From Flavobacteriales bacterium (GTDB taxonomy: Bacteria; Bacteroidota; Bacteroidia; Flavobacteriales; Flavobacteriaceae), in NCBI GenBank assembly GCA_027024205.1, contig JALVST010000033.1, positions 1 through 48,096 of the forward strand: a DNA stretch of 48,096 nucleotides, written 5' to 3'. Positions 4,150 to 47,752 of the stretch are shown here, in pieces. Position numbers and translations under genes: made by a program. Numbering within the stretch: the first letter of the stretch is position 1; every line of letters starts with the position of its first letter. The notes under the pieces are model-generated. The model worked only from the letters and a program-made list of their open reading frames with translations, made no database searches and was not told where the DNA came from.

Positions 4150-4177
4150 AATTATTTTTTTAATGTTACAATATTAT

Positions 4178-5084: not shown

Positions 5085-5308
5085 AAAGATTAGCAAAGTA
5101 CTTCTTGAAATTTAGCTTTTACTTTTCTATTTGTTGCTTGTAAACGAGTTAACATTTAAATTTTGAATATGATACAACATACGATACTGCGTTACAATAA
5201 GGAGATAATTAGGTAGAAGGAAAATCTTCTTTTTGGCTTTTTCATGTTAGATTTGAGGATTAATAATTCATTTCAACAACCAAATATGTTTTCCAACCTG
5301 TTTAATAT

Positions 5309-8676: not shown

Positions 8677-8729
8677 ACAATGGATATAAAATCGTTTATT
8701 GTTTGGTAAAATTTTTATAAACCGGAATT

Positions 8730-12043: not shown

Positions 12044-12158
12044 CGATTAGTTTTTATGTTACCCGGTTAGGCCGGCTGACGTGTTAAGTATTTAATTGTA
12101 TGATCTTCAATAAAATACTTTTACATCCTGACGTGAACGGTTTTCAAAACCAGTATAT

Positions 12159-13775: not shown

Positions 13776-13793
13776 TGTTACAGTTTTAACAAG

Positions 13794-13827
13794 CCGGGAT
13801 TTGGCATAAATTTATGCCAAATCCCGG
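13794..13827 (-). promoter_or_regulatory. Perfect 34-nt palindrome between susD and sulfatase
   Basis: The halves CCGGGATTTGGCATAAA and TTTATGCCAAATCCCGG are perfectly complementary with no loop. It lies 34 bp after the SusD stop and 18 bp before the sulfatase start. No T run follows, so it looks like a partial terminator or an mRNA stabiliser that sets the susCD-to-sulfatase expression ratio. Confidence 0.6.
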
Positions 13828-13861
13828 TTGAAAATTGGTTGTTATAATTTAATTAAAGAAA

Positions 13862-15388: not shown

Positions 15389-15401
15389 AATTTGATTGTT
15401 T

Positions 15402-18551: not shown

Positions 18552-18717
18552 AGCTAAGTTTATTTTTTTGTTTTATAAATTTCCAGCTAATTTAAAAGAT
18601 TTGTTTTTAATTATCTCCATAAAATTATCCTAAAAGGTATGTTTTCTGTCATTTTAGTGTAAAAATTACGAGAATCTTAATATAATTTAATTAAAAATGA
18701 TAAATGTCATTAAAATT

Positions 18718-22638: not shown

Positions 22639-22685
22639 TTCGGATTAAATTTGTTTGTGGCATTAAAAATACTAATAAAAATGAT

Positions 22686-22721
22686 AAAAAAACAAAGTTG
22701 CTTAAATTTTAAGCAACTTTG
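22686..22721 (-). terminator. Rho-independent terminator after the upstream sulfatase
   Basis: The near-perfect palindrome CAAAGTTGCTTAAA/TTTAAGCAACTTTG (22693-22706 and 22708-22721) is followed on the minus strand by seven T residues (22692-22686). It lies 49 bp after the sulfatase stop and 48 bp before the HTCS start, so the two genes are separate transcription units. Confidence 0.85.
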
Positions 22722-22769
22722 CAGATAAATCAGATTAAATCTAATTTATTATGTTTGTTTGTGTTTATA

Positions 22770-24515
22770 TTATAAATCAAATTTTCCGGGCAGTTTATCC
22801 AAATATTTCGTTTTGAGTTCTGCTTTCATTTCTTTGATGATTTTGGCATATTTAGGGTCATTAATCAGGTTATGCTGTTCACCGGGGTCTTTTTCCAGGT
22901 CATAAAATTGATCCAAATCGTGATAATGAGGCATGGAAATATAAGCTGCATGTTCAGCTCCACCACCGCCGGGAATCATTTCCAGTTGTCCGAAAGGAGC
23001 TTTCGGGTCATGAGAAATAGCGTGTTCACCAAATGATTCTCTGAATTTATTGTATTTTTCCAAGGTATCTTTACGTTGTTCCAAAGTCATGTTCATTGCC
23101 CATTTAGGGTATCTGACGGCATAATATTTATAATGACCTTTGGTAATGGCGCGGGCATAACCCAGTTCGTGATACATGGAAGTGCGTTTGTTGTAAGGTT
23201 TACCTTCGAGAGCCGGTGCAAAACTGTATCCGTCAAAATTATGTTGAATAGTATCGCCGGCCAAAGCCAATAAAGTCGGTAGGAAATCAACATTTGAAAC
23301 AGGGTCTTTTAGAATATGGCCTACTTTGAAACCGCCTTTTTTCCAAATAAAGGCTTGCGAATTGATACCACCTTCATAAAGGGTTCCTTTTTGATTTTGT
23401 CCGTGATCGTTAAAGAATACGATAATAGTGTTGTCCAAAACGCCTTGTTTTTCCAATTCTTTAAATAATGCCCCGAGTGCGTCGTCTAACCACAGGACAT
23501 TTTCTTTGTTTTGGCCTTCAAATCCGGCTGCTTTTATACGTCTTTTGATAGATTCTATATTTCTGATAGTCGGTTCCAGTCCGGGATCTTTGGCAATTTG
23601 TTTTTTTTGTTCGGGCGTTAATTCGCCTTTATATTGCGGAAGGACTTCGGGAGCTTTTCCTAAAATACCACGTGCCGTAATTCGACGGTCGGACAGCCAG
23701 GAATGTTCAGGGTCAAGCGGCGCGTGTGTCAAAGTAGAGGCTATGTAAAGCATAAAAGGTTGGTCTTTGTATTTTCTGATAAAATTGACACCGCCTTCGG
23801 CAATCCAATCGTTGTTTTGGTAAGCCAGTGCTCTGTTTCCTAACCAATTAGGATTGTTGTGATAAAGTTTTTCGGCATAATCAAAACCTGATTTTTGGAT
23901 GTCCTTTTGTAATTCGTGATAGTGGTATTCCAATTGTTTTTTGACCTCGGGATCACGCGGGTCAGCGTATAAATCAAAGGTAACACCGGCTTCTCCTACT
24001 TGTTTTTTGCTTTCTATAACGTGATTTTTCCCTACAAAACCGGTTTTATATCCCAATGCTTGAAAATAATTTCCCATGGTTTTGTCTTTGCCGGGAACGA
24101 TAAATGAATTCCATTGAATAACCGTTTGTCCGTCATTTTTTTGAGTAAACCATTTAAAACTCTCGTTTTGAGCCCGGCTGGCATAATTGCCGGTTAAACA
24201 ATTGTATCGGCTAGGCGTGCAAACAGGGGAAACAACTTTGATGTTATCCAACCAAACGCCTTCTTTGGCCAATCTGTCAATATTCGGTGTTAAGTTAGCC
24301 GGTTTACCGTCCTTGGTTTGTCCTTCCGGAATATTGTTAAACATCCAGGGATACATATCATCCGCTATAAAGAAAATGATATTTGGTTTTTTTGTTTTTT
24401 GTTTTTCAGCAGTTTGTTTATCATCATTTTGAGGTATTGTTTTATGACCGTTTTGACATCCGGTTATCAAAACGCCTGTAAAAAAAATAATAAACAAAAG
24501 TTTTAAAGTTTTCAT
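22770..24515 (-). CDS. Lipoprotein sulfatase, subfamily uncertain
   Basis: The 581-residue sulfatase has lipobox Cys20 (LITGC), Asp52/Asp53 (FFIADDMYPW) and catalytic Cys99 in CTPSR, a variant of the CxPSR motif used by the other three. GFVGKNHV and THAPLDPEHSW supply active-site Lys and His, and FFNDHGQNQKGTLYEGGI is the C-terminal metal and substrate loop. A predicted insertion of about 60 residues (around 270-330) enlarges it. It belongs to a different subfamily from the three downstream sulfatases. It is transcribed from its own promoter in the region shared with the divergent GH5 gene. Confidence 0.92.
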   Translation of the reverse strand: MKTLKLLFIIFFTGVLITGCQNGHKTIPQNDDKQTAEKQKTKKPNIIFFIADDMYPWMFNNIPEGQTKDGKPANLTPNIDRLAKEGVWLDNIKVVSPVCTPSRYNCLTGNYASRAQNESFKWFTQKNDGQTVIQWNSFIVPGKDKTMGNYFQALGYKTGFVGKNHVIESKKQVGEAGVTFDLYADPRDPEVKKQLEYHYHELQKDIQKSGFDYAEKLYHNNPNWLGNRALAYQNNDWIAEGGVNFIRKYKDQPFMLYIASTLTHAPLDPEHSWLSDRRITARGILGKAPEVLPQYKGELTPEQKKQIAKDPGLEPTIRNIESIKRRIKAAGFEGQNKENVLWLDDALGALFKELEKQGVLDNTIIVFFNDHGQNQKGTLYEGGINSQAFIWKKGGFKVGHILKDPVSNVDFLPTLLALAGDTIQHNFDGYSFAPALEGKPYNKRTSMYHELGYARAITKGHYKYYAVRYPKWAMNMTLEQRKDTLEKYNKFRESFGEHAISHDPKAPFGQLEMIPGGGGAEHAAYISMPHYHDLDQFYDLEKDPGEQHNLINDPKYAKIIKEMKAELKTKYLDKLPGKFDL

Positions 24516-34847: not shown

Positions 34848-34880
34848 AGCTACCCGGTTTTGAGTAGCTCCTGTTTTCGC
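34848..34880 (+). terminator. Possible terminator after pcm
   Basis: The short stem AGCTAC/GTAGCT (34848-34853 and 34864-34869) is followed by CCTGTTTT. The stem is only six pairs, so the call is tentative. Confidence 0.4.
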
Positions 34881-35053
34881 TATTTTTATTTCGTAAAATA
34901 TTAAATGATTGATAATAAGCATGTTATAGATTTATTTTGTAACTTTTGGGTGTCCTGCATATTTATATTAGAGAAAATTAGAAAAATTTATTGCCAATCT
35001 TATATCACAGACATTTTTAAAAAGATGGAAAATGCGGTCATTACCCCCCCCCT

Positions 35054-35353
35054 GCCATACGAAGGTTTTCCGTAAATTTCAAGTTTTTCGTACGTTATAT
35101 CAATTTTAAAATAAATATGGTCCAAAAATAATTTGGTATAATACCGCTACTACATGAAAATAGGACAATTTATTGGACTATATTGAATGTGTAAGCGGTA
35201 TTAAAAACAATCTGCTGTTTGAGCAAAATGAAAGTTTCTTATGAAAGTTAAAATATTCTATCAAATAAAAATAAAGATTAAAAACAATAGGCTTTTGCGA
35301 GTTCAGATTGTTTAGGGAGAAAAGCGTAGAAATTAGGAAAAGTTTCGTATGGC
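35054..35353. repeat. Inverted repeat with flanking C tracts
   Basis: GCCATACGAA (35054-35063) is repeated inverted as TTCGTATGGC (35344-35353). A run of nine C lies immediately left of the first copy (35044-35052) and a run of six C lies 18 bp right of the second (35372-35377). The 290 bp between the arms have no ORF. Confidence 0.6.
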
Positions 35354-35505
35354 TAGCGTTGTTTCAAGTATCCCCCCTAAAACCAAATACCAATTGTTTT
35401 TTGCTGATTTTTAGGGTGTTTGTGTAAGCGGTGATGTCCGAAATTATCATTTTTGTATCATTGAAGTATCATTTTACGGGACTGTAAATGCCTGTTTTTA
35501 CCGCT
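35139..35505. repeat. Four AGCGGT sites near the prophage left end
   Basis: The exact 12-mer TGTGTAAGCGGT occurs at 35188-35199 and 35421-35432. TAATACCGCT (35139-35148) and AGCGGTATTA (35194-35203) form a perfect 10-bp inverted repeat. A fourth site, ACCGCT, is at 35500-35505. Clusters like this at the end of a transposable phage are candidate transposase or repressor binding sites. Confidence 0.55.
35445..35477. repeat. Three TATCAT repeats at 11-bp spacing
   Basis: TATCAT occurs at 35445, 35456 and 35467, each exactly 11 bp apart, about one DNA helical turn. A protein binding one face of the helix is a plausible reader. Confidence 0.6.
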
Positions 35506-35696
35506 TTTATACCATTTGTATTCTAAATATATAAAATTTTTTCCTTTGGTTGGTTTTTTTATGAAAGTATAACATTTTATTGGTATTTGGTTTTTTTAGA
35601 CTTTGCCCGTTTTTAAAAGATTGTTAATAAACCTGCGTTTTTATTAAAAAGTATATAAAATACAGAAAAACAAGATATATAAATATAATGTATAAC

Positions 35697-36371
35697 TCAT
35701 TCCACACGTATCACCCCAACCACCAAGGCAATACCGGTTATTTCGTCAAGTGGCACATCAAAAGGCGGATATTCGGGGTTATCCGATTTGCATTTATAAT
35801 GTCCTTCTTGATCCGACGGATATAAACGCTTGACCATAATACCTTGGTTACGTGTGCCTATCAGATGCGGACGCCCCCATTGTATAAATTCTGAACTTTC
35901 CAGTTTGTGCACAGCTACCAAATCGCCCGAGTAGTATTTAGGAGCCATACTGTTACCTGATATCTCTATCATAAAATCAGGCTTTAAACGACTAAATTTC
36001 GGCACCACATAGTGGCTCGAAATATCCCCTTCTGTTATCAAGCTATCAAAATTACCATAACCGGCATTAGCCCGCACATCTACCAGTGGTATAGCATCCT
36101 TTTGTCCCGGGTTTGCCGGATGAAGCACAGGTTCTTTTTTTAATTGTTTAGCATCAGACTTTATCATAGACCCTTTACCGGTTAAAAGCCATTCTGGATT
36201 TATGTCATCAAATGTTGAGATAAATTTCTCAATACCAAATTCGCTTAAACCTGATGATTTATCAAGCGTTCCATTAGCGATATTTGTTAGTTGATAAAAT
36301 TTTCTCTTATTAATACCCTTATAATCAATGTATTTAAGTATTCTTTTTTTAATTTTTGAGACATTTTTCAT
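35697..36371 (-). CDS. LexA/CI-type S24 phage repressor
   Basis: The protein has 224 residues from the ATG at 36371 (MKNVSKIKK). Upstream in-frame ATGs would run into the early gene and its promoter, so they are rejected. An N-terminal helix-turn-helix region (1-65) is followed by an S24 peptidase domain. Ser141 (ISGNSMAP) and Lys181 (MVKRLYP) are the catalytic dyad. Ala103-Gly104 (NAGYG) is a candidate autocleavage site 37 residues before Ser141, close to the LexA spacing. RecA-stimulated cleavage would then induce the prophage. It is divergent from the small early gene across a 57-bp promoter region. Confidence 0.9.
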   Translation of the reverse strand: MKNVSKIKKRILKYIDYKGINKRKFYQLTNIANGTLDKSSGLSEFGIEKFISTFDDINPEWLLTGKGSMIKSDAKQLKKEPVLHPANPGQKDAIPLVDVRANAGYGNFDSLITEGDISSHYVVPKFSRLKPDFMIEISGNSMAPKYYSGDLVAVHKLESSEFIQWGRPHLIGTRNQGIMVKRLYPSDQEGHYKCKSDNPEYPPFDVPLDEITGIALVVGVIRVE

Positions 36372-36377
36372 TTTTTC

Positions 36378-36408
36378 TTGCTTGGATTGAGAAATATATC
36401 TATATTTG
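36378..36408 (+). promoter_or_regulatory. Early promoter and operator region
   Basis: TTG (36378-36380) and TATATTTG (36401-36408) are spaced by 20 bp, matching the Bacteroidota promoter pattern, 20 bp before the start at 36429. It lies between the divergent repressor and early regulator, where a lysis-lysogeny switch is expected. Confidence 0.65.
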
Positions 36409-36428
36409 CATAATAAATTCATATAAGT

Positions 36429-36641
36429 ATGAACAAAGATATACAAAAAAAACTATTTACTAACAAAGAGTTAAAATTGATCCGGGGTAATATTCGCCGT
36501 GTAGCGGTCAAAAACAAAGTGACACGTGAATATGTAAGTAAAATAGTCAACGGCAGGGCGCCTATCAGAACCCGCAAGGCGCAATGTATTTATAACGACA
36601 TCAAAAAGTTGTTAAATATCTTAAAAGAAGTAGCAGGATGA
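36429..36641 (+). CDS. Small HTH-like early regulator
   Basis: The 70-residue basic protein has a helix-turn-helix-like pattern: KNKVTREYVSKIVNGRAPI in the middle suggests turn and recognition helix. It is the first rightward gene opposite the repressor, the position of Ner in Mu or Cro in lambda. The stop overlaps the next start by 4 nt. A role as an early repressor is inferred from position and size only. Confidence 0.65.
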   Translation: MNKDIQKKLFTNKELKLIRGNIRRVAVKNKVTREYVSKIVNGRAPIRTRKAQCIYNDIKKLLNILKEVAG

Positions 36642-37084
36642 ACTTTCAACAGGAAGTTATATTAACCCCCAAATCATCGGGCTACCAATATTGGATTGCC
36701 CAAAACTTGTTGCAAGACAGGTTGGGATTGAGTGATAATTATTTAAGATTTGTAAGGAATACATACAAAAACTCCGTCCCCCCGGCCCTACGCTCACGTT
36801 CCATCCTGCCGGCCACCGGAAAGTCCTGGCGTTGGACACGTATCAACGGACAATTCTATTATGATTACGACTATATACCAAACAGGGCGCCCAAGTATTA
36901 TAAAGCGTCCATAAATATTGACCAACTTACACGGCAATGTCAATACCAACCCGTCCGCAATCAAATTATACATTATATTAATGAATATTACACCGAAACC
37001 GCAAGACAATATCCACCGCGAAATGCGTTGGCACGGCAAGCGGTTCAGAACCATATCGGCACACCAAATTGTCAGCCGGTTTGA
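36638..37084 (+). pseudogene. Mu-A-like transposase N-terminal fragment
   Basis: The 148-residue reading frame starts in overlap with the upstream stop. Residues 1-110 (LGLSDNYLRFVRNTYKNSVPP, WRWTRINGQFYYDYDYIPNRAPKYY) resemble the N-terminal DNA-binding part of transposable-phage transposases of Bacteroidota. After about codon 110 the frame lies over the ATPase coding sequence, which is read in another frame, so the last about 35 residues are probably not original. The DDE catalytic core expected after this domain, several hundred residues, is missing. The assignment rests on resemblance and position. Confidence 0.55.
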
Positions 37085-37421
37085 TGCCGAAGGCGAAAAA
37101 GGGATAGCCCCTTATCTGTATTCCGGCAGCCTGTTTATAGACGATTTGGGCGCCGAAGCCGTTGGCGTTCATTACGGCAAGCGTGAGGAAGTTTTAAAAA
37201 GAGTATTGGAGATGCGCTACATACTCTTTACCAATGAAGGCAACCGCACTTATGCCACCACCAATTTAAGCTTACAAGAACTTGCCGAACGCTACGGCGG
37301 ACGTGTAGAAAGCCGGTTGTATGAAATGTTTAATATCGTGTATTTGGGCGATAAGGCGGATAGCAGGGATTTTAGGAAAGTTCGAAGTGGAAAGATAAAA
37401 GTGGAAAGTGGAAAGCGGTAA
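36981..37421 (+). pseudogene. DnaC/MuB-like ATPase, C-terminal half only
   Basis: The reading frame retains the second half of an AAA+ DnaC/IstB-like ATPase. Walker B is FIDDLGAE, TTNLSLQELAERYGGRVESRL carries sensor 1 and the arginine-finger region, and EMFNIVYLG follows. The Walker A P-loop and N-terminal part are absent. The ATG at 36981 gives 146 residues; an upstream ATG at 36918 lies within the transposase-like frame. The last residues encode a GTGGAAA tandem repeat. In Mu-like phages this gene follows the transposase, so a deletion joining the two genes is the simplest explanation. ATP hydrolysis is not expected. Confidence 0.65.
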
Positions 37422-37501
37422 AGTGGAAAGTGCGTCCGCATTTTTTTTGAACCACAAAAGACATAAAAGGACATAAAAGATTAAACTAAAACCGAATTGA
37501 T

Positions 37502-37804
37502 ATGAAACAAACCATTTACACCGGACACGTAAGAAGTCATTACGTCCCGAAAAACAAGTTACAAGAAGCCGTATCAGACTATCTCGATACGTTAGACGGC
37601 AAAGCGTTCACAAAGGAACAATACCTGCGTAAACGCGTGGAAATAGGCGTTACCATAAACGAGCTGAACAAACGGCACCCAAGAGCCACACCTGTAAAAA
37701 TAGATTGGTATGTATCAAAACAGCCAACCGGCAAAGCCATACACTTTATACACGGCATACAGGCGATTGATTTTTGTTTTATAACCGGAGAATTAGATAA
37801 ATAA
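37502..37804 (+). CDS. Unknown early phage protein
   Basis: The 100-residue protein is not recognised. It begins MKQTIYTGHVRSHYVP and has a helical, charged middle and a beta-rich end (IHFIHGIQAIDFCFITGELD). It lies among the small early genes after the transposition region, 4 bp before the next gene. No catalytic or DNA-binding motif is evident. The upstream 80 bp contain a duplicated GACATAAAAG. Confidence 0.6.
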   Translation: MKQTIYTGHVRSHYVPKNKLQEAVSDYLDTLDGKAFTKEQYLRKRVEIGVTINELNKRHPRATPVKIDWYVSKQPTGKAIHFIHGIQAIDFCFITGELDK

Positions 37805-37808: not shown

Positions 37809-38024
37809 ATGACATCAGATTCTATAAAGCAAACCGTTAAAGACCTTCAAGCCGAAAAACAAAAACTACAAAACCGCTTAAAAATCATTGAAGGTATTAT
37901 TGAAACCTACCAAAACAAGCTCTGTCCGCACCAATACGAAGACGGACGCAGCGCTATTGAGGAGGATGCCCCCTTACACCCGGCATCACAGCTACAATGC
38001 CAAATATGCGGGAAGGAATTTTAA
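37809..38024 (+). CDS. Small coiled-coil/zinc-ribbon-like protein
   Basis: The 71-residue protein has an N-terminal heptad-like helix (about 5-38, KDLQAEKQKLQNRLKIIEGI) and a Cys/His-rich C-terminal half. CPHQ, then CQICGKEF, place three Cys and a His as in a zinc ribbon. It probably dimerises and binds Zn. The next gene in another frame is separated by a promoter-like region. Function unknown. Confidence 0.65.
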   Translation: MTSDSIKQTVKDLQAEKQKLQNRLKIIEGIIETYQNKLCPHQYEDGRSAIEEDAPLHPASQLQCQICGKEF

Positions 38025-38090
38025 GATATTTGAAAAATTTAAAATATGCCAAATTACAGAGAGTTATTTGGTATATTTTTTGCACAAAAC

Positions 38091-38130
38091 ACTTGCATAA
38101 ACGCAAGTATTCATTTTTTTAATATCTTTG
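38091..38130 (+). promoter_or_regulatory. Promoter with inverted-repeat operator
   Basis: TATCTTTG (38123-38130) is a good -7 box, 20 bp before the ATG at 38151. No TTTG lies 20 bp upstream. Instead the inverted repeat ACTTGC-ATAAAC-GCAAGT (38091-38108) covers the -33 position, fitting an activator or repressor site. Confidence 0.55.
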
Positions 38131-38150
38131 TATTATTAATTTTAATTATC

Positions 38151-38375
38151 ATGGCTCAAATATTTAGATTTTTATCCAAACTTATCGATATTTATTCCGG
38201 GACATACAAGTCCGATAATCCGGAAATAAATCAAATGAAAAAAGAGTTAATGGATATATCCCGCATTCCAACAATGGCGGATGATAGCCGGTATCTAAAA
38301 GCTGATATGAATAACATTTTAAGAGACACAAAAAAAGCCTACAAATCAATTAAAACGGAAATAGCAAATGGCTAA
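38151..38375 (+). CDS. Unknown small protein paired with DUF2335 gene
   Basis: The 74-residue protein starts at the ATG at 38151 (MAQIFRFLSK); upstream in-frame codons lie within the promoter. It is hydrophilic with two predicted helices and no TM segment. Its last 8 nt overlap the next gene, so the two are translationally coupled. Not recognised; the coupling suggests that it works with the DUF2335-like membrane protein. Confidence 0.6.
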   Translation: MAQIFRFLSKLIDIYSGTYKSDNPEINQMKKELMDISRIPTMADDSRYLKADMNNILRDTKKAYKSIKTEIANG

Positions 38376-38781
38376 ACAGCGAAGAAAAGCTCAAATAACT
38401 AAAAAGCAAGGGCAATTAGGACATATTTATGAGGAAATAGTAGATGATAATTTATTGCCTGATGCTGATGAAATATCAAAGCTATCAAAGATAGATCCGG
38501 ACATAATGCAGTGGTTAAAAGAACGTGCTGAAAAAGAACAGGAGTTCAGGCAAAAGGCATTTATGGAGCGACTAGAATTAGTTAAGAAAAACGAACGTGG
38601 CTCACGTTGGATTAACTATGCCGGATTATTATTTTCTTTTTTGTTATTAGGAGGTGGAATGTATTCGTCTTATTTGCTTATAATGGCAGGGCATACGCTT
38701 GTAGGCACTTTATTTTCCGGTGTCGTTTTAATCACTGTTGCTTCAATGTTTTTGAGTAAGGTAAGAGGAAACGGTAAATAA
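38368..38781 (+). CDS. DUF2335-like membrane protein
   Basis: The 137-residue protein has a cytoplasmic N-terminal half with a charged coiled-coil helix (about 45-78: IMQWLKERAEKEQEFRQKAF) and two C-terminal TM helices (about 85-104 and 108-128). ITKKQGQLGHIYEEIVDDNLLPDAD at the start and the two close TM helices fit DUF2335 proteins. The family has no firm function. In a prophage it could be a lysogenic-conversion or exclusion gene, which is inference. A terminator follows. Confidence 0.65.
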   Translation: MAKQRRKAQITKKQGQLGHIYEEIVDDNLLPDADEISKLSKIDPDIMQWLKERAEKEQEFRQKAFMERLELVKKNERGSRWINYAGLLFSFLLLGGGMYSSYLLIMAGHTLVGTLFSGVVLITVASMFLSKVRGNGK

Positions 38782-38846: not shown

Positions 38847-39012
38847 TAAATATTCAAACATATCTTTGTGCTATGAAAACATACAGAGACTTTGATTGGT
38901 AATTTAATATTATGAAAAGAGACGTTATCGGCGGATAAAACTTTCAACCTTCAACTTTCAACTTTCAACTCACGTAGGGATTTGCTTTTATAAAAAAACG
39001 CTTGTATATTTG
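38833..39012 (+). promoter_or_regulatory. Two tandem promoters built on an 18-bp direct repeat
   Basis: GGGATTTGCTTTTATAAA occurs at 38833-38850 and 38977-38994. In each copy TTTG is followed after 20 bp by a -7 box, TATCTTTG (38861-38868) and TATATTTG (39005-39012). The first leads into two mini-ORFs, 38873-38902 (MKTYRDFDW) and 38912-38938 (MKRDVIGG). The second serves the gene at 39050. Confidence 0.7.
38943..38970 (+). repeat. 7-bp tandem repeat, four units
   Basis: One TTCAACC unit is followed by three TTCAACT units. It lies between the two tandem promoters and may change length by slippage. Confidence 0.7.
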
Positions 39013-39049: not shown

Positions 39050-39274
39050 ATGAAAAAACAGACACGTCAAGAACGCATTATCAATCGCAATAAACGTATT
39101 ATCAGGGATTTTGTCCGTTTGTCAGACAAAAAGACTGCTACCGGCGTTAAAATTTACACGCACGAATATATTCTTGAAAAACTTGCCGACCGGTATGCTT
39201 TGTCTCCTATTACCATAGAAGCTATTGTATTTGACCGGATTAACTATTCTTGGAAAAACGTTAAGAATAACTGA
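39050..39274 (+). CDS. Small HTH-like basic protein
   Basis: The 74-residue protein starts at the ATG at 39050 (MKKQTRQERI). It is very basic in the first 20 residues. A helix-turn-helix-like pattern follows (YILEKLADRYALSPITIEAI). A strong promoter lies 38-69 bp upstream. It ends in a 14-nt convergent overlap with the head operon, exactly where a middle or late activator (Mor or C) would sit in Mu. That role is inferred. Confidence 0.6.
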   Translation: MKKQTRQERIINRNKRIIRDFVRLSDKKTATGVKIYTHEYILEKLADRYALSPITIEAIVFDRINYSWKNVKNN

Positions 39275-39740
39275 TGTCCGGTTGTATTTGTACTGCTGTT
39301 GTTCCGGGCAATGTGCCTGTATCGTATAGAGCCGTTTTATAGGACATTATAAGTATTTTGACTTGATTGTATTGTTGCACTTCTGTATGACTGCGCATCC
39401 AAGCGGTTGAGAGTTTTATTCCGTCCGTGTCATAAATTTCAAATCCTTGCATTATTTGATGCAATTGTTTTCCCAATTCAAATAGTTTTCCGGGATTGTC
39501 GTTCAAATCGAAAATGACCAAGTGCAAACGTATAAACGTCTCCGGTGCTATTTGCAAGCCGTTACCGGCGGTTTGCCATTGCATCGGATTGTCAAACTCG
39601 ATATACACAGCCGGCAGTTTAGGCGGACGGCTGTCGTCATAATTGTCGTATTGCTCGTTGTAATAATCCACTTGTTTAACGTCTGTTAAACCGCTTGTAA
39701 TATGTTGTTTAACGGCGTTTAAATAGGTTTGATACATCAT
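39261..39740 (-). CDS. Tail-terminator/neck-like phage protein
   Basis: The 159-residue protein is the last gene of the leftward head operon. PPKLPAVYIEFDNPMQWQ, then IRLHLVIFDL and a C-terminal strand region, resemble tail-terminator or neck proteins such as Mu gp37-type. It lies 19 bp after the gpG-like gene, matching the usual head-to-tail connector order. The assignment is by size, fold pattern and position. Confidence 0.55.
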   Translation of the reverse strand: MMYQTYLNAVKQHITSGLTDVKQVDYYNEQYDNYDDSRPPKLPAVYIEFDNPMQWQTAGNGLQIAPETFIRLHLVIFDLNDNPGKLFELGKQLHQIMQGFEIYDTDGIKLSTAWMRSHTEVQQYNQVKILIMSYKTALYDTGTLPGTTAVQIQPDISYS

Positions 39741-39759
39741 AATTTTACTTTTTTTACGC

Positions 39760-40329
39760 TTATTTGTTATTTAGAATACGGTTAATGTCCCGTTGTATCA
39801 TTTTTTTGAGTTTGTTTTCCAGGGCTTGGCTTTTGCCCAAGAATTTGCGTTGAGGCACTTTTGCCGTTTTTTTACCAAAGATTTTGATGTTTCCACCTTC
39901 GTTATGCACTTTGGCATAGGGCACATCGGATTCAATCACCACCAGGTTTTTGTTGATGATGCGGTATTCCAAGCTTTCTTTCAAATCACCGGTTAGGCCG
40001 ATAAGCGTTTTACGTTTAGTAGCCGCGGGGCTGTAATTGGTGATAGCGCCCGGTTTGCGGGCTTTATAGGGCTTTTTGGCACCTTTACGTCGCGGATGAT
40101 TATCGGGTGGAGGTGTTTTGGCGCCGTATTGAAAGCCATACCAAACGCTGGAACTATCGGTGCGTTTGGCTGGTTGCCATTTTTCCAAATATCTGTCCAC
40201 AAAACCTTGTTTGTAAAAGTTTTGCGTGAAAAATTTACGGCTTTCTATACCTATTTTGCGATGCATATCACGTTCCATATAGCGTTGCAACCGCTTGAAT
40301 TTGGCTGTTATTTTGTCAAAATCGTTCAT
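39760..40329 (-). CDS. Phage virion morphogenesis protein, Mu gpG-like
   Basis: The protein has 189 residues from the ATG at 40329 (MNDFDKITAKFKR). A longer frame from 40473 would overlap MuF and the hairpin, so it is rejected. The C-terminal signature VPYAKVHNEGG followed by VPQRKFLGKS is typical of virion morphogenesis/tail-completion proteins (Mu gpG, P2 gpS). The middle is rich in Lys, Arg and Pro. It follows MuF, as in Mu. Confidence 0.82.
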   Translation of the reverse strand: MNDFDKITAKFKRLQRYMERDMHRKIGIESRKFFTQNFYKQGFVDRYLEKWQPAKRTDSSSVWYGFQYGAKTPPPDNHPRRKGAKKPYKARKPGAITNYSPAATKRKTLIGLTGDLKESLEYRIINKNLVVIESDVPYAKVHNEGGNIKIFGKKTAKVPQRKFLGKSQALENKLKKMIQRDINRILNNK

Positions 40330-40370
40330 TTGCTTGACTTGGTATGAAATTTGTTGTATATTTGCTATGC

Positions 40371-40424
40371 AGTCGAAAGTAAGCAAGCGTGGCCTATTCT
40401 GCCACGGACTCCTTACTGACGACT
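40371..40424 (-). ncRNA. Three-helix hairpin at the 3' end of MuF
   Basis: On either strand 54 nt fold into three stacked helices: AGTCG/CGACT (40371-40375 and 40420-40424), AGTAAG/CTTACT (40378-40383 and 40412-40417) and CGTGGC/GCCACG (40388-40393 and 40401-40406). Small internal loops separate them. The MuF stop codon (40413-40415) is inside the middle helix. No T run follows. It may be an mRNA processing element or a DNA recombination site. Confidence 0.5.
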
Positions 40425-41495
40425 GTTTTTTTGTCTTATAGAGTGAAATATATAATGTTCTTTTGTCTTCCAAATGATGATGTAAAATTTATCATATTCA
40501 AAAATTAGTGTTTTTTGAATATTCACTCTTTCTCCTGCTTTTTTCGGACTTTCTATTTTTAGAAATTTAGCTTTGTTTAAAACATCATCCAAATGAGCAA
40601 CAATAAAGTTTTTTATTTCCCATAAGAGATTATCTTTTATGGTCTGGCTTAATGCTTTTTTTATACCTCTGTTACTTATTAAGATTTTCTTTTTTCCAAC
40701 TTCTATTGTTTTGCCCGCCAACTTTTTAGCTTTTTGATATGCTATTGCCCTCACATATTTTGTATATAATTTAGAAAACTCCCTTTCAATATCCTTTTTG
40801 GCCGTTTTACTCACCCGTTTTATCATAGGATGTCCGTCGGTGAATACCTTGCCGGTGATACCGGGATTGTTACGCATTACTGCCGGAGGCGGTTTAATGT
40901 CGGCGGGTGGTTCGGTATAATTTCCCGGACGGTCTGTTTGTTCCACCGAGCATTTACATCCCCAGTCGTTTGGTGGTAGCCACGTATTCCAAAACGGGTC
41001 GTCCACGGGTTTGACAAGGTTGTATAGTTTTTTGTGATCGTTGCGTGGTTCGGCAGCCGTGCTGGGCATATATTTCAAATAAGGATAAATATCTTTATCA
41101 CGTTGAAATTGTTGCCAACGTTTGGCCATACGTGCCGAGCGGACGGTATGAACGTATTCGGTAGTTAGCCAGCGTTGGTTATATTTATCGTTGATAGCCG
41201 GCGGATTATCGCTGTGGCGGATGTCGTGAACCTGATGGGCTGTTTTGTAAGCGGCAAAGCGTGCAGTATTGTGTTTCATTTTAACGGCGGTTTCAAAATC
41301 CTGTGTTCCGGGTTTGGTTTTGCCGTAAACTTTGTCAATACCGCGGTGCAAGTGTCCGGTAGTATATTGCCAAAGCTTTTCATTGAGTCGTTTGCCCGAT
41401 GATTTAACTTCCCGGATGATTTCGTCATATTGATCCGCAGGGATATTCATTTTAGGTATTCCCTGTGATTTGGAAGACAATATAAAGCCATGCAC
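40413..41495 (-). CDS. MuF-type minor head protein with C-terminal effector-like domain
   Basis: The protein has 360 residues. The Mu F/SPP1 gp7-like head morphogenesis domain spans about 75-205, with R151-x2-H154 and the signature WLPPNDWGCKC (172-182). Residues about 260-360 form a separate domain, ISNRGIKKALSQTIKDNLLW then YDKFYIIIWKTKEHYIFHSI. This pattern resembles the Barnase/EndoU/ColicinE5-RelE-like nuclease domains that Bacteroidota phages fuse to MuF proteins. Such a domain could be injected with phage DNA. An alternative start at 41450 (MNIPADQ) would remove 15 residues. The 65 bp before the gene hold a CCCCGAAG/CTTCGGGG hairpin. Confidence 0.85.
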   Translation of the reverse strand: MHGFILSSKSQGIPKMNIPADQYDEIIREVKSSGKRLNEKLWQYTTGHLHRGIDKVYGKTKPGTQDFETAVKMKHNTARFAAYKTAHQVHDIRHSDNPPAINDKYNQRWLTTEYVHTVRSARMAKRWQQFQRDKDIYPYLKYMPSTAAEPRNDHKKLYNLVKPVDDPFWNTWLPPNDWGCKCSVEQTDRPGNYTEPPADIKPPPAVMRNNPGITGKVFTDGHPMIKRVSKTAKKDIEREFSKLYTKYVRAIAYQKAKKLAGKTIEVGKKKILISNRGIKKALSQTIKDNLLWEIKNFIVAHLDDVLNKAKFLKIESPKKAGERVNIQKTLIFEYDKFYIIIWKTKEHYIFHSIRQKNSRQ

Positions 41496-41560
41496 CGGAC
41501 AGCCCGTCCGACTTTTATAATACAGTTCTACCGCTGCCCCGAAGTCTAATCCTTCGGGGC

Positions 41561-42718
41561 TTAATCGAAAAAATCGTCTGTCCGGAGTGTCGAAGATGTT
41601 TGTTTTTTGCCAGTTACCGGTATACCGAAAGTATTTTTGATAAATTCGGGATCTACATCATAGTGATTGAGAATACCTTCGGTGATTTTCCACAGATTTT
41701 GTGTATCGGGTTCTTTGTCAAAACCAAATGTTAATCCTTGGAACGGATAACCGGTATCGATAAGTTTGGGTAAAATGTATTGGTTCATCAGTTTTTCTAT
41801 CCAAGCACGGTCGGAGTCGTGGATTTGGTCGGTGATGTCTTTGCCTACCTGTTCTTTTGCCCGGGAACCTTCGTGGCTGTCTTGTCCGATGACACTACCA
41901 TTGATGAGTTTGGACACTTCGGCATTGGCCAGTTTGATGAGATTACCATATACTTCGCCGTTTGATTTGGCTGATTCTACAAATTCAATCATTTCGTCAT
42001 TATCGATAATGGCATAAAAGGCGGTGCTCATCTCCAGCATCATTTGTTCCATACGGTTGAGACTTTCGCGGTCTTTTGTATTTGTTTTTGCTATACGTAT
42101 AGGCATACCGAATATTTCGGTAAACTCACTCCAAGCACTTTGAGCAAATCGTTTAAACAAGACGTGTGGAACGGCTTTATTGAGCAATCCGAGGTCTTTT
42201 TTTTCGCCTATTTCTATCAACCAAGCTTTATATTCCGGGGCATTATAGTTGATGCCTTTGTCGTCATTGGGTTGTTTGAGAAACAAACTTTGTTCGGGGA
42301 CGATATGCCCGCGCGGGATTAATTCCAATTGCGTAATCTCGCCGTTGTCAATTTCACTGATTTGGATAAGCGAATGACCGTAAAAACGGGTTTCTATGAT
42401 CCATTTGAGGAGTTTGTCAAACCAATTTTTTCGGAGTAATTGTGTTTTGTCACTGATATTGCCTTTTTGGTCTGTCAATTTGAACGAAGCACCCGTAACG
42501 GCCAGTGTTCTTTTTTGAATTTCGGCCGTCAGGTGGGCATCCAACATAATATCGTCATAAATTTCGTATAATCTGAACCGTCTCTGTTTGAAAGGATTTT
42601 CGGCCAGAGAGAGAGCCGCTTGCCATTTTTGTATATCGTTTCGTGCGCGTCTTTTTATTTGCCACACGATATTGTCAAGGACTTTGTTTGGTCTTTTTTT
42701 GATACTTTTTTTAGTCAT
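41561..42718 (-). CDS. Mu gp29-like portal protein (DUF935)
   Basis: The 385-residue protein carries the DUF935 signature: IYDDIMLDAHLTAEIQKRTLAV near the start, then LPKLIDTGYPFQG and EVSKLINGSVIGQDSHEGSRA in the middle and C-terminal part. DUF935 is the portal of Mu-type phages, the dodecamer through which DNA enters the head. It is shorter than Mu gp29 (about 510) but complete in its core. It lies 21 bp after the gp36-like gene in the head operon. Confidence 0.9.
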   Translation of the reverse strand: MTKKSIKKRPNKVLDNIVWQIKRRARNDIQKWQAALSLAENPFKQRRFRLYEIYDDIMLDAHLTAEIQKRTLAVTGASFKLTDQKGNISDKTQLLRKNWFDKLLKWIIETRFYGHSLIQISEIDNGEITQLELIPRGHIVPEQSLFLKQPNDDKGINYNAPEYKAWLIEIGEKKDLGLLNKAVPHVLFKRFAQSAWSEFTEIFGMPIRIAKTNTKDRESLNRMEQMMLEMSTAFYAIIDNDEMIEFVESAKSNGEVYGNLIKLANAEVSKLINGSVIGQDSHEGSRAKEQVGKDITDQIHDSDRAWIEKLMNQYILPKLIDTGYPFQGLTFGFDKEPDTQNLWKITEGILNHYDVDPEFIKNTFGIPVTGKKQTSSTLRTDDFFD

Positions 42719-42739
42719 ATTTCCTATACATTTAATATT

Positions 42740-43141
42740 TTAATAATAATGATTGAATTTTTTACCGGTTCCGTATCGCAACGGTGTGCCTTCTTTGTCG
42801 TTTTTGACCGGTAATCCTGGATTTATTTCTCCCAGTGCCAATTTGTTAAGCCATTGCATAGCGGCGTCATACCGTTCTTTACGCAGTTCCGGGATATGGT
42901 CGGGGCTGATATTGGCGTGCAGATGCCAAAGCATCAGATCGATAAGAATACTTTTTAGAGGTTCTTGCAAAGGCGGTGAAAAGATACCGTCTGCATCGTA
43001 TCGCACGGCTATAAAACTTTTCATAGTGGCAACCGAAAGGTTTTCGGCTTTGTCGAGCATATTATTGTTACCGCCCGTAAGTGTTTGCAGGTCGGTATCG
43101 TTTATCAATAGTTTTAAATCGTCTTGTGTTATAAAGTTCAT
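42740..43141 (-). CDS. Mu gp36-like head-tail connector (DUF1320)
   Basis: The 133-residue protein resembles DUF1320/gp36: MNFITQDDLKLLI start, SFIAVRYDADGIF and LMLWHLHANISPDHIPELRKERYDAAMQWLNKLALGEI are characteristic. It acts at the head-tail interface. In Mu the gp36 gene follows the capsid gene; here it is moved between the large terminase and portal genes on the opposite strand, 4 bp from the terminase stop. Confidence 0.82.
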   Translation of the reverse strand: MNFITQDDLKLLINDTDLQTLTGGNNNMLDKAENLSVATMKSFIAVRYDADGIFSPPLQEPLKSILIDLMLWHLHANISPDHIPELRKERYDAAMQWLNKLALGEINPGLPVKNDKEGTPLRYGTGKKFNHYY

Positions 43142-43145
43142 AATA

Positions 43146-44654
43146 TTAAAATTTGCGGTTTTCTCTTTTTTTGATGATATAATTGTGTTTTGATATTCTC
43201 ATATCTTTTGACAGTAACCAAATAGCGCCTTCGAGGGCGTCGGGGCCGTCATCGTGAGCTTTGGAGCCTTTTTCAAAGCTCAACAGTTGGTCGATGAGTG
43301 TTATCATATCGGGGTTGTTTTTTTCTTTTTTATTAAAACGTATCAGTCCTTTTTCAAAGATTGGCGATAAGGCTTCGATACGGGCGAATTTGTCCGGTTT
43401 TTTACGGGCATCTTTTCGAAGCGGAAATATAATATTGTGTTTTTGGGCTTCGCGGTCAAATTCATCGATAATCAGGTCTTGGGCAAAATTGGCTTCCATA
43501 TAGTATTCGCAGACCACGCTGTCGGGCAATGACCGGTAATGATGAAACAACCAACGGATAAGCTCACCGATGCCTGTTTTGCGGACAAAAGCTTGCAATA
43601 CGTCAAAATGTTTACCGTCGGTACCTAACACGACCACGGCTTTGTAGTCGGCGGTTCTGCCCGACTTAAAAGAGGGGTCTATGTAAGCCAAAAGACGTTT
43701 ATACCGGCTGTAAGGCAGGCGTGGTTCCCAGCGGATCCATTCGGGTTTGAATATACTGCCTTCTGTAATGGGATTGTTAAAGAGTTCTTTTTGTGCCCGC
43801 CGGTAGCCCATTTGTTCTATCAGGGCGTTGATTTCTATTATTGAATAATTTTCGGGCCAAGCGGGTTTTCCGTTTTTGTCCAGCGCATCAACGCGTATGG
43901 TTTTGAATGCCGGATTATCGGACAGGCGTGCAATGATGCTGTTTTTGGCGATTTTGTTGCCCACGGCTATGAATCGTCCGCGTCCCATTGCCATGGCGCC
44001 CAGTAGTGCCGTAAGTGTCCAGTCGTAAAGTTTGTTTACCCGGTCGGGATTACGGACAATTTCGTCATCGTCTATATCGTCCATTACGATATAATCCGGT
44101 CTGTATTGACGATAACGCAATCCGCGGGGGCTTTGTCCGCGTCCGAGTGCAAAAAAGGCACGGTCATCGCGGGTTACAAATTTACCTTCTTCCCAAGCAC
44201 CTGTTTTTATTTGCTGTCCAAAATCATTTATATAACGTTGATTGTATTGTAGTTCGGCTTGAATATCACCGAGCAATGTAGCGGCGGCATCATAAGATTT
44301 GCCTACCAATACCATGACGTTAAATTCCCGATTATCTTGTATTTTGAGCCAAAGCGGCATAAATATATCGGCGTGTGTGCTTTTGGCGTGTCCGCGTGCC
44401 CACATCAGCACCAGGCGCACTTTGGGGTTGGATTTGACCAGTTTGGCGGTTTGTAATTGAAATTTGGCCGTTTTTGCCTTGGCATAATGCGGAAAATAAT
44501 ATTCTACAAAGTAAGCATAGTCTTTTTTGACCTTTTCGATGCGTTTTTGTTTGTCGGTATCGCTCTCAAAAGGGTCTATTTGTGTTTGTTCGAATATGAG
44601 TTTGGTTTGCAACCTGAATCTTTTCAGGGCTTCTTTGTCTTTAATTTTTGCCAT
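43146..44654 (-). CDS. Phage terminase large subunit, Mu gp28-like
   Basis: The 502-residue protein has an ATPase domain and a nuclease domain. Walker A is ARGHAKST (86-93), Walker B YIVMDDIDD with Asp192/Asp193, and the RNase H-like nuclease starts at Asp326 in LAYIDPSFKSG. A later acidic patch includes HDDGPDALEGAI near residue 470. These catalytic residues are all present. It packages DNA into the prohead by headful cutting in Mu-like phages. It is downstream of the small subunit by 93 bp. Confidence 0.92.
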   Translation of the reverse strand: MAKIKDKEALKRFRLQTKLIFEQTQIDPFESDTDKQKRIEKVKKDYAYFVEYYFPHYAKAKTAKFQLQTAKLVKSNPKVRLVLMWARGHAKSTHADIFMPLWLKIQDNREFNVMVLVGKSYDAAATLLGDIQAELQYNQRYINDFGQQIKTGAWEEGKFVTRDDRAFFALGRGQSPRGLRYRQYRPDYIVMDDIDDDEIVRNPDRVNKLYDWTLTALLGAMAMGRGRFIAVGNKIAKNSIIARLSDNPAFKTIRVDALDKNGKPAWPENYSIIEINALIEQMGYRRAQKELFNNPITEGSIFKPEWIRWEPRLPYSRYKRLLAYIDPSFKSGRTADYKAVVVLGTDGKHFDVLQAFVRKTGIGELIRWLFHHYRSLPDSVVCEYYMEANFAQDLIIDEFDREAQKHNIIFPLRKDARKKPDKFARIEALSPIFEKGLIRFNKKEKNNPDMITLIDQLLSFEKGSKAHDDGPDALEGAIWLLSKDMRISKHNYIIKKRENRKF

Positions 44655-44747: not shown

Positions 44748-45194
44748 TTATCTCACTCCTTTTTCGCCGGCTTTCATTTCTATAAATTCACTCAATAAGC
44801 CGGTTATCTTTTTGACTTCTCCCGGGTGTTTTGATTGCAACCAATATATTAGTTCTTCGCTTACTTCTATATATATGTGTAAAGGTGATTCGGATAGACT
44901 TTCTATTTCTTTACGAATGACTGCTTTGGCATCGCTCATTTCTTTGTTTGGGATGCCGTCCAGTTCCTTGTCTATATACTCATTGATACGTTTGAGTTGT
45001 CTGTAAGCATCTTGCAAGAGTTGTTTGCGGGTGATGCTTTCTATGGCTTTGAGCTGGTCCCAGTTTTCATCGTTTATCCACTTACGCAAAGTTTTTTCGG
45101 TAATACCGGCAATTTTTGCAATGTCTTTGCGGCTCATATCCGATTTAAGATAGAGACTTTTTGCCGTCAGTTTTTTTTCTTTATAAGATGCCAT
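44748..45194 (-). CDS. Terminase small subunit, Mu gp27-like
   Basis: The protein has 148 residues from the ATG at 45194 (MASYKEKKLTAKSLYLKS). The longer frame from 45254 starts with an unrelated hydrophobic segment and is less likely. A helix-turn-helix (MSRKDIAKIAGITEKTLRKW) recognises DNA, and coiled helices follow for oligomerisation. It is the first gene of the leftward packaging/head operon and precedes the large subunit, the expected place for a terminase small subunit. Confidence 0.75.
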   Translation of the reverse strand: MASYKEKKLTAKSLYLKSDMSRKDIAKIAGITEKTLRKWINDENWDQLKAIESITRKQLLQDAYRQLKRINEYIDKELDGIPNKEMSDAKAVIRKEIESLSESPLHIYIEVSEELIYWLQSKHPGEVKKITGLLSEFIEMKAGEKGVR

Positions 45195-45415
45195 AACTTT
45201 TTTATCACAAAATTCGGTTTTATTAAGAAGTGATAAAATTTTTTGTTTGACCATTAAACCGGATTATGACAAATGGTTACAGAATTTGATACAACTGTTA
45301 AATTCCGATTTGGAAAGCGAGCGAAAGCCCTGCAATTTTGTAGTTGATGAATTGATGAATTGAGGAATTGAGGAAATGAGGAATTGAGGAGTTTTATATT
45401 AAAATAAAGTTATTT
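45195..45415. promoter_or_regulatory. Divergent late promoter region with tandem repeat
   Basis: This 221-bp region separates the divergent head and capsid operons, so it must hold both late promoters. Six 8-bp units, TTGATGAA twice, TTGAGGAA twice, ATGAGGAA and TTGAGGAG, lie at 45344-45391, 25 bp before the protease start. No TAnnTTTG box is convincing, as expected for activator-dependent late promoters. Confidence 0.5.
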
Positions 45416-46321
45416 ATGGAAAAGCGATTTGTATTGAGCGACGGTTCTGTTAATTCACATGGTTTCAGGTTGGATATGGAAAAGATTCAATTGGAGCGTT
45501 TTCGTTCCAATCCCGTTATGTTATACAATCATTATGATTTGATAGGCAAGTGGACTGATATATCGCTGGAAGACGGTGTTTTGACGGCTATTCCCGATTT
45601 TATGGACGATAAGGATGAGCCGGTTGCATTGAAAGTAAAGAAACGGGTATCAAACGGTTATTTAAAAGGAGCGAGCTTGGGTATTCGCATTTTAGAGGTA
45701 AGAGAGCAAAGCGGCGAGCCTCCTGTTGTAACGGCTGAGGTTTTGGAAGCAAGTATTGTCGATATACCGGCTAATGCCAATGCTTTGGCTTTGTATGACG
45801 AATCCGGTAAACGTTTGGAAGGAGAAGCATACCGGTTGGCACTAAAAACAATCAGTAAACCAAAGACCACTATTAAACATTATAATAATAATATGGAATT
45901 AAACAAAGACACATTGTCAAAACTCGGCTTGGGAGCTAATCCGGGTATTGAAGCTATCGATGCGGCTATAAAAGAATTAGTTGCTGAGAAAGAGTTACTG
46001 CAAAAAGAATTGCAGGATTTGAAACAAAAGCAAATAAACGATTTGCTTGATACGGCTATACGTGAAGGGCGTTTACAAGCCGGATTGAAAGAGAAATATG
46101 CCAAGTTGGCCGAAAAGGATTTTGAATTGTTTGCCGAGACTTTAAAATCCTTGCCAAAGGCATCAAAGTTGCCGGAAGTTGAACCGGTTGAAAAAGGTGA
46201 TGCCCGTTTGTCGGGACGAGAGGATTGGACTTTTAATGATTGGCGCAAAAAAGATCCTTCGGGTCTGTTGCACATCAAGAAGACTGATACGGAATTGTAT
46301 CAAAAAATTTTAAACAAGTAA
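45416..46321 (+). CDS. Prohead protease fused to scaffold, Mu I-like
   Basis: The 301-residue protein has an HK97-type (U35) protease domain at 1-140. His39 is in NHYDLIGKW, Ser87 in LKGASLGIRIL, and VDIPANANALAL is the conserved C-terminal strand. A scaffold part follows (160-301), helical and charged with a coiled coil at about 178-205. An internal ATG at 45893 (MELNKDTLSKLGL) in a favourable AT-rich context could make the scaffold alone, like gpZ of Mu. It is first in the capsid operon, 13 bp before the capsid gene. Confidence 0.87.
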   Translation: MEKRFVLSDGSVNSHGFRLDMEKIQLERFRSNPVMLYNHYDLIGKWTDISLEDGVLTAIPDFMDDKDEPVALKVKKRVSNGYLKGASLGIRILEVREQSGEPPVVTAEVLEASIVDIPANANALALYDESGKRLEGEAYRLALKTISKPKTTIKHYNNNMELNKDTLSKLGLGANPGIEAIDAAIKELVAEKELLQKELQDLKQKQINDLLDTAIREGRLQAGLKEKYAKLAEKDFELFAETLKSLPKASKLPEVEPVEKGDARLSGREDWTFNDWRKKDPSGLLHIKKTDTELYQKILNK

Positions 46322-46334
46322 AAATAGAAAGCGT

Positions 46335-47339
46335 ATGAAAACACTTATTAAAGTTGTAACGGGATTGTTTGCGGTTATGCTGTTAGCGGTAGCCGTTGGT
46401 ATGGTAACGGGATTTTCGCCATTGGCGGTTTTCGGTGGTATTTTATTCTTATCACTGTTTAACAAGCGTCAAAGCGGTGTTTTATTGGCCGGTGTCAATA
46501 AAGAGATTTGGCTTCCGGAGATATTGGAGAACTTTTTTCCGGATTCGGCCTTTTTGTCTAATGCTCGGAATTTTGATGCCTTTGTTGAGAATGATAAAAT
46601 TAACTTGGCCGAAGCAGGTGTATCGCCTGATGTATTGATTAATAACACGACTTATCCTGTTCCGGTAGAGGAACGTGCTGATACACCGATAGCCATTGAA
46701 TTGGATTATTATGATACCAAAAACACGGTTATCCGTAATGCCGCTAAGGTAGAATTATCTTATGACAAACTTCAATCGGTGATTTACGGTCATAAACAAT
46801 CATTGCAAACAAAATTTGCCGAGAAAGCCATTCACGCTTATGCGCCTGACAGTGACGGGATTTTTACGCCCGTATTACCGACAACGGGAGATGCTAATCC
46901 CGATACGACCAAGAAAATCAGTTTTGAAGACATTTTGAAATTGTTCAAACGTTTTAATGAGGTTGATTTGCCGGGTAACCGGGTGTTGGTTTTACATCCG
47001 CAACACGAAGCGGAGTTGATGTCCGAGGATTTGAAGCTTTACAAAGAGGTTATGAATACTCAAAACCTGTTTGGGTTTAAGGTATTCCGTTTTAGCAAGA
47101 TGCCTGTTTTTGACAAGACGACCGGTCATAAGAAGCCTTTTGGTTCGGCATCCGGTTCGAACGATACGATTGCATCGGTTGCTTATGTTGAAACGGAAGT
47201 TATGCGTGCATTGGGCAGTATGGATATGTTCTTTAAAGAGAAAGATCCGGAAGCCCGTGGCGATATCATCGGTTTCCAAATGCGCGGTATTGCTTTGCCT
47301 ATCCGCGGTAAAGGTATTGCGGCTATTTATACGGCTTGA
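46335..47339 (+). CDS. Major capsid protein, Mu gpT-like
   Basis: The 334-residue protein shows the HK97-fold arrangement after residue 50. WLPEILENFFPDSAFLSNARN, YPVPVEERADTPIAIELDYYDTKNT and a long C-terminal P-loop region with GFQMRGIALPIRG match Bacteroidota Mu-like capsids. The N-terminal about 45 residues are strongly hydrophobic with two helix-like stretches (residues 5-26 and 28-45), which a capsid protein does not need. This segment may be a delta domain removed by the protease, or a signal for membrane association. The stop TGA overlaps the next start by 1 nt. Confidence 0.85.
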   Translation: MKTLIKVVTGLFAVMLLAVAVGMVTGFSPLAVFGGILFLSLFNKRQSGVLLAGVNKEIWLPEILENFFPDSAFLSNARNFDAFVENDKINLAEAGVSPDVLINNTTYPVPVEERADTPIAIELDYYDTKNTVIRNAAKVELSYDKLQSVIYGHKQSLQTKFAEKAIHAYAPDSDGIFTPVLPTTGDANPDTTKKISFEDILKLFKRFNEVDLPGNRVLVLHPQHEAELMSEDLKLYKEVMNTQNLFGFKVFRFSKMPVFDKTTGHKKPFGSASGSNDTIASVAYVETEVMRALGSMDMFFKEKDPEARGDIIGFQMRGIALPIRGKGIAAIYTA

Positions 47340-47752
47340 TGCGTGATATTGATTACATAGTGATACATTGTTCAGCGACGCCTTCTCATCTTGACATCGG
47401 TGCCGCCGATATAGACCGGTGGCACCGTGAGAGGGGGTTTCGTAAGATAGGTTATCACTTTGTTATCAGGCTTAACGGTGTATTGGAGACCGGCAGGGAT
47501 TTGAAAGAACCCGGGGCTCATGCCCGTGGATATAATCGTAACAGTATCGGGATTTGCTATGTTGGTGGTTTGAATGAAGCCGGTTATCCGTCCGATACCA
47601 GAACAGAAGCACAAAAAACGACATTGACGAGTTTGGTCAAAGCTTTTCACAATATTTGGCCTTCGGCAAAGATTGTTGGACACAGGGAATTACCGGGTGT
47701 TCATAAAGATTGCCCTTGTTTTGATGTTGAAGAATTAAGAAATCTGATTTAA
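47339..47752 (+). CDS. N-acetylmuramoyl-L-alanine amidase (endolysin)
   Basis: The protein has 137 residues from the ATG at 47339, which overlaps the capsid TGA. It is a minimal amidase_2/PGRP fold like T7 lysozyme. The Zn ligands are His10 (VIHCSATP), His115 (GHRELPG) and Cys125 (KDCPCFD), with Tyr39 (IGYHF) as catalytic residue. It cleaves the amide between MurNAc and L-Ala for host lysis. No signal peptide or holin is visible in the window. Confidence 0.93.
   Translation: MRDIDYIVIHCSATPSHLDIGAADIDRWHRERGFRKIGYHFVIRLNGVLETGRDLKEPGAHARGYNRNSIGICYVGGLNEAGYPSDTRTEAQKTTLTSLVKAFHNIWPSAKIVGHRELPGVHKDCPCFDVEELRNLI

Follow-up and report, generated by a model that had tools for sequence, protein, structure and literature searches.

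A Mu-like prophage with two short early genes

In contig C33 (48,096 nucleotides, referred to as a whole as the window) of a Flavobacteriales genome, a short transposase-like gene and a short ATPase-like gene lie side by side at positions 36638-37421, and the question that they raise is whether they are complete genes or the remains of longer ones. A preliminary description of this DNA had read them as a transposase N-terminus that runs out of frame into an AAA+ ATPase without its P-loop, and had attributed the absence of the DDE core to a deletion. Searches with the two pieces bear this out: each matches one part of full-length homologs, the first the N-terminus of a transposase and the second a DnaC-like AAA+ helicase loader. 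We estimate the probability at about 0.8 that a Mu-like prophage was hit by one internal deletion of approximately 6.3 kb, which left it cryptic ('grounded').

Extent and insertion site of the prophage

The element is a Mu-like (transposable) prophage in a bacterial genome of the Flavobacteriia type. It is 22.7 kb long and delimited at both ends, running from window position 35369 past the end of the window into contig C13, where its right end lies at C13:10112. The left end (35369..35393, plus strand) has a 25-bp terminal inverted repeat, TATCCCCCCTAAAACCAAATACCAA, that matches the right end (C13 10088-10112) at 22 of 25 bases. A sequence match to the end motif, TTGGTATTTGG, occurs internally at 35580..35590 (plus strand) and, by analogy with the end sites of Mu, is a putative transposase-binding site. 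The tetranucleotide CAAG is present on both flanks of the prophage, and the uninterrupted target is seen in another copy, on contig C76, of the repeat in which the prophage sits. The target duplication is thus most simply read as 4 bp (CAAG), with 5 bp and one mismatch as a less favored reading; a length of 4 bp agrees with a study of related transposable phages in Porphyromonas gingivalis, which describes repeats of 4 bp at their boundaries (PMC10367356). The host genes flanking the prophage, pcm and secDF, adjoin each other in sister genomes, which therefore represent empty sites. The element thus has the defined termini and short target duplication of Mu-like transposable phages of Bacteroidota (Winoviridae, Hankyphage-type).

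A start of the prophage directly behind pcm was considered and dropped, because the stretch at 34868-35368 belongs to a multi-copy host repeat, and it is within a longer copy of this repeat that the prophage is nested. This host repeat (window 34868-35368 plus C13:10113-10351) is approximately 490-770 bp long with ends CCTGTTTTCGC and GCGAAAACAGG, and its copies, mostly 88-97% identical, are on contigs C10, C11, C18, C30, C76, C102 and C118, and partly on C141. The copies are flanked by direct repeats of variable length–at pcm-secDF, for example, 26 bp of a terminator hairpin–and this variation is odd for a standard insertion sequence.

The final 127 bases of C33 (47970..48096, plus strand) are identical to the first 127 bases of C13, and C13:60-10112 contains the sheath and tail genes and the right end of the same prophage. 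The exact 127-bp match points to a k=127 graph assembler whose graph branched here. The overlap is probably the trace of such a branch, and a second phage variant in the sample may have been its cause. Next to the overlap is a short repeat that codes for DKEP units.

A transposase fragment

The open reading frame at 36638-37084 (148 amino acids) opens as a Mu A-type transposase. Approximately 124 N-terminal codons of the transposase gene remain (36638..37015, plus strand), and the reading frame then runs on out of frame as far as the stop codon at 37084. We found five homologs with a full-length transposase, whose open frames are ~670-750 amino acids long. The first ~120 residues of the 148-residue product are 59% identical to the N-terminus of a 672-residue transposase from a prophage in another genome of the same genus (G007), and there is 52% identity over 79 residues to a 689-residue protein of the virus genome IMGVR_UViG_3300028030_000435 (L014, also listed as L003). 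Identity is 47% to a 748-residue protein of L001, and the homolog in L002 also has 748 residues (both are Bacteroidota-type virus contigs); it is 27-38% to the 746-residue protein of Flavobacterium phage fF4. The G007 and L014 transposases are assigned to the PHROG transposase family phrog_310. E-values for the transposase and ATPase fragments range from 1e-42 to 1e-79, which excludes chance matches. The alignment to the full-length transposases ends at ~37018 in the window, and in these relatives the rve/DDE domain is located downstream of the N-terminus (residues 289-390 in the G007 protein), consistent with the proposal that the DDE core was lost by deletion. The idea that the short genes are complete as they stand was rejected: transposase homologs have ~670-750 residues, the intact helicase loaders of close relatives have 265-292, and no homolog has short complete genes.

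The conserved N-terminal domain of the transposase (residues 4-90) is kept in the 148-residue product. A structure model of the N-terminus built from five sequences has pLDDT values of 74-85 over residues 11-40 and a low overall confidence of 62.8; its layout is winged-helix-like, and according to this model the domain could still fold. Searches with the model using Foldseek and VIA-align gave no match below E 0.9, the only rows being weak winged-helix or excisionase-like ones (Z 3.4), and solved structures yielded no meaningful match when searched with the helicase loader or with alignments of the N-terminus and of the full transposase. A second transposase copy was found neither in the rest of the element nor in the binned genome, in keeping with the preliminary expectation that the prophage should not transpose alone.

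The ATPase fragment is a helicase loader

Another reading frame aligns, from position 37008 on, with residues 165-288 of a 292-residue AAA+ ATPase of L014 (86% identity). The remnant (37009..37394, plus strand) is the C-terminal half of a DnaC-like AAA+ helicase loader (phrog_50/phrog_3277); it retains the Walker B motif (LFIDDLGAE), and the Walker A motif (GNFGSGKT) is gone. We considered an assignment to the Mu B type and rejected it, since the DnaC-like loader matches the fragment and the Mu B-type genes of L014 and G007 do not. The preliminary description had taken the two pieces for neighboring transposase (A) and ATPase (B) genes, and this part of it has to be replaced, because in intact relatives the loader gene is several genes further on. 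An intact helicase loader of 265 residues with Walker A is present on a 3.6-kb contig of another genome of the same genus (G012), and in the binned genome itself we found no second Mu B-type ATPase or helicase loader.

Compared with L014, the ATPase fragment has dN = 0.08 and dS = 0.76 (dN/dS about 0.11), and it contains no stop codons or frameshifts of its own. These values point to strong past purifying selection, under which most of the divergence accumulated, and for this reason the deletion is probably young relative to the divergence from L014.

Short dispersed repeats with many near-copies elsewhere in the genome are present at window positions 37383-37430 (of the AAGTGGAAAGTGGAAAG kind), 38936-38998 and 45341-45390. 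One of them lengthens the reading frame of the truncated ATPase.

Position and size of the deletion

The gene order in L014 places the two pieces far apart. After the repressor, L014 has the transposase (2277-4346), a Mu B-type ATPase (phrog_296; 4365-5300), a DUF3164 gene, small genes, a replication O-like gene and the DnaC-like loader (8497-9375), followed by homologs of the window genes that begin at 37502 and 37809. It therefore carries both ATPases, the Mu B-type gene directly after the transposase and the loader 3.2 kb beyond it. L014 resembles the window element in its repressor, transposase N-terminus (52% identity), loader (86%), two early genes (80% and 59%) and Mu-type head genes, all in the same order, and differs from it in that its early region is intact, with a 689-residue transposase, a 311-residue Mu B-type ATPase and all the genes up to the loader.

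The junction is at 37008..37019 (AATATCCACCGC), where the transposase match ends (~37018) and the loader match begins (37008). The preliminary description was right that there is a junction, but its estimate of 36950-36990 was off by about 20-60 bases. Its estimate of the loss, ~2 kb, was too small by about threefold: alignment to L014 places the homologous breakpoints at about 2670 and 8991, so that ~6.3 kb is missing. The lost DNA begins at codon ~125 of the transposase and includes its DDE domain; beyond this, the Mu B-type ATPase gene is missing in full, as are the DUF3164 gene, several small early genes and the replication O-like gene, and the helicase loader has lost its first half. At the breakpoints L014 reads TATCCGCA on the transposase side and TATTCACA on the loader side, and it is plausible that the parent had a shared sequence of ~5-8 bases (TATCCAC-like) at both places, although no undeleted parent came to light, so that breakpoints and microhomology are estimated here from relatives that are 52-86% identical.

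The deletion has been seen in one genome only. A search of IMG/VR with an exact 32-base junction pattern gave no match, and among the 397 genomes of the family that we sampled there was no relative with the same deletion.

Other relatives of the prophage

The prophage in the same-genus genome G007 (contig C210, locus L011) has a repressor 79% identical to that of the window element, a transposase N-terminus 59% identical, and the same left-end sequence, TATCCCCCC, with which it opens. It differs in having a complete transposase (672 residues) that is followed by a Mu B-type ATPase gene, within which the contig ends. The G007 prophage is inserted in the intergenic terminator behind rpsA. This prophage (L011 876-4263), in a sister species, is located ~4 kb from the chromosomal position that corresponds to the window prophage, which is probably a coincidence.

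Flavobacterium phage fF4 (MN850656.1, 31,958 bp, Winoviridae), an inducible transposable phage (PMC7761591), shares a minus-strand repressor, a DDE transposase, an ATPase and a DUF3164-type gene with these elements, and its left-hand gene order, like that of G007, is similar to the order in L014. Unlike the window prophage it is intact and ~9 kb longer, and its late-early gene at the corresponding place is not a DnaC-like loader. Since the transposase body and the Mu B-type gene are both present in L014, G007 and fF4, and the window element has only ~124 transposase codons and no Mu B-type gene in place of a DDE transposase followed by a Mu B-type ATPase, we file it as a defective derivative. 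A further relative, a prophage in a Flavobacteriales metagenome-assembled genome (JAMONV010000050.1, L018), has the same order of head genes, a terminase with 75% identity and a tail sheath 58% identical to the one on C13; it differs in that its early region is off its contig. By best-match searches only, the closest named phages have 27-38% identity on the transposase N-terminus and about 34% on the terminase. No named plasmid relatives were found.

Genes that remain

The prophage still has its repressor, its end sites and its genes for head, tail and lysis, which are intact in length by comparison with L018 and by family search. The repressor gene (35697..36446, minus strand; 79% identical to the G007 prophage repressor) codes for an S24 peptidase-like domain. 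Between it and the transposase remnant is a 70-residue reading frame (36429..36641, plus strand) that has no family match and, by position only, is possibly a Ner-like regulator. Beyond the deletion are two small early genes on the plus strand: one of 100 residues (37502..37804; 80% identity), which is the gene after the helicase loader in intact L014, and one of 71 residues (37809..38024), 59% identical to the L014 gene at the same place. Two small genes (38046..38781, plus strand) lie between the early and late regions; the second codes for a predicted membrane protein of phrog_3996 ('moron, host takeover'), which possibly acts in superinfection exclusion.

The head and neck genes (39261..44654, minus strand) comprise a phrog_6911 protein, a tail completion protein, a Mu F-like protein, a Mu portal (DUF935), a Mu gp36 homolog (DUF1320) and the large terminase; they are near full length compared to L018, in line with the earlier impression that the head genes are intact. 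At 44748..45254 (minus strand) is a terminase small subunit-like gene of the gpP/DUF1804 type. A prohead protease/Mu I-like gene and a probable major capsid protein gene (45416..47339, plus strand) come next, the latter identified by position and by its L018 homolog and having no Pfam match, followed by a lysis gene for an N-acetylmuramoyl-L-alanine amidase (47336..47752, plus strand; family search). The tail-type genes of the same prophage, sheath and tape measure among them, are on C13. The set of Mu-type head genes (DUF935 portal, gp36/DUF1320, Mu F, terminase and prohead protease) is that of Bacteroidota Mu-like phages.

Alternative explanations

The contig could in principle have joined the two ends of an early region that is intact in the cell, through a chimeric read or a mixture of phage variants. 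The genome is a fragmented assembly of 151 contigs, probably metagenome-derived, and the 127-bp overlap between C33 and C13 inside the prophage is typical of a branching k=127 graph and may mean that more than one phage variant was in the sample. For a false join, however, graph assemblers normally require a shared k-mer longer than what is available here: homology at the junction is shorter than ~10 bases, a comparison with C33 and with 40 kb of C13 showed no recurrence of any k-mer of at least 14 bases spanning it, and the window contains no Ns, which makes a repeat-driven false join unlikely. The flanks and ends of the prophage also fit a single insertion, and overall we regard an assembly artefact as rather improbable.

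The preliminary description suggested that the prophage may be domesticated, or a satellite that needs a helper phage. A satellite would have given up its own transposition genes, drawing transposase in trans from a helper and being packaged in particles. In favor of this, terminal repeats and an internal end-like site do remain, the genes for head, tail and lysis have kept their length, and a further related phage may have been in the sample, to judge from the contig overlap. Known satellites, however, usually lack most structural genes and have dedicated hijacking genes, and the pattern here is the opposite, with the structural genes kept. Nor is the element recurrent and conserved, or devoid of its own particle genes, as a phage satellite is: it is a single instance, both among the sampled family genomes and in the IMG/VR junction search, a helper transposase is absent from the binned genome, and the broken genes are recognizable remnants rather than a streamlined design. 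We consider a satellite very improbable. Domestication, in which head or tail genes would be retained for a host function, or the transposase N-terminus as a DNA-binding immunity factor, has the same low standing. Late genes are still full length, and the 148-residue product keeps the N-terminal domain, with its low-to-moderate-confidence winged-helix-like model and weak excisionase-like matches, but selective retention looks the same as too little time for decay, and the defective form was not found conserved across species. Neither reading has positive support, and simple grounding fits better. There is likewise only a slight chance that the deleted form itself, with its ends and the full set of particle genes, is maintained and spread, mobilized by intact relatives in the same population and with its truncated N-terminus serving as an extra regulator.

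How the deletion would ground the prophage

In the sequence, the left part of the transposase gene is joined, out of frame, to the right part of the helicase-loader gene (~6.3 kb downstream in L014). In the favored reading the join would have occurred at the short shared sequence of ~5-8 bases, with neither a transposon nor a site-specific recombinase involved. Given what Mu A and Mu B are known to do, an element that lacks them is unable to integrate or replicate by transposition. With the DDE transposase and its ATPase partner gone, the prophage would therefore neither replicate by transposition nor insert after infection, and Mu biology implies that it is locked in place. A complete relative that might be sought in the same genome is not among the binned contigs. 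The repressor may still give the cell protection from related phages, and if a related phage supplied a transposase, that enzyme could act on the intact ends.

The element has the hallmarks of a cryptic or defective prophage, in which mobility or replication genes are gone and other phage genes are left. Loss of recombination genes is known to strand otherwise recognizable ('grounded') prophages (PMC6379469); the examples there are cryptic prophages of E. coli (DLP12, e14, Rac, CPZ-55 and Qin), whereas the element described here is a transposable phage. The deletion is of an ordinary kind, and represents routine prophage decay. It is nevertheless a clean example of how a transposable phage can be stranded, in that one short-homology deletion appears to have taken the transposase, its ATPase partner and the replication helpers together while sparing the repressor, the ends and the particle genes. 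It also calls for caution in annotation, because the two leftover reading frames resemble real short genes and yet are fragments.

Elsewhere in the window, ORF translations at 8730-24515 include four apparent sulfatase genes, a SusC/SusD pair and a hybrid two-component regulator, a group that looks like a polysaccharide utilization locus for a sulfated glycan.
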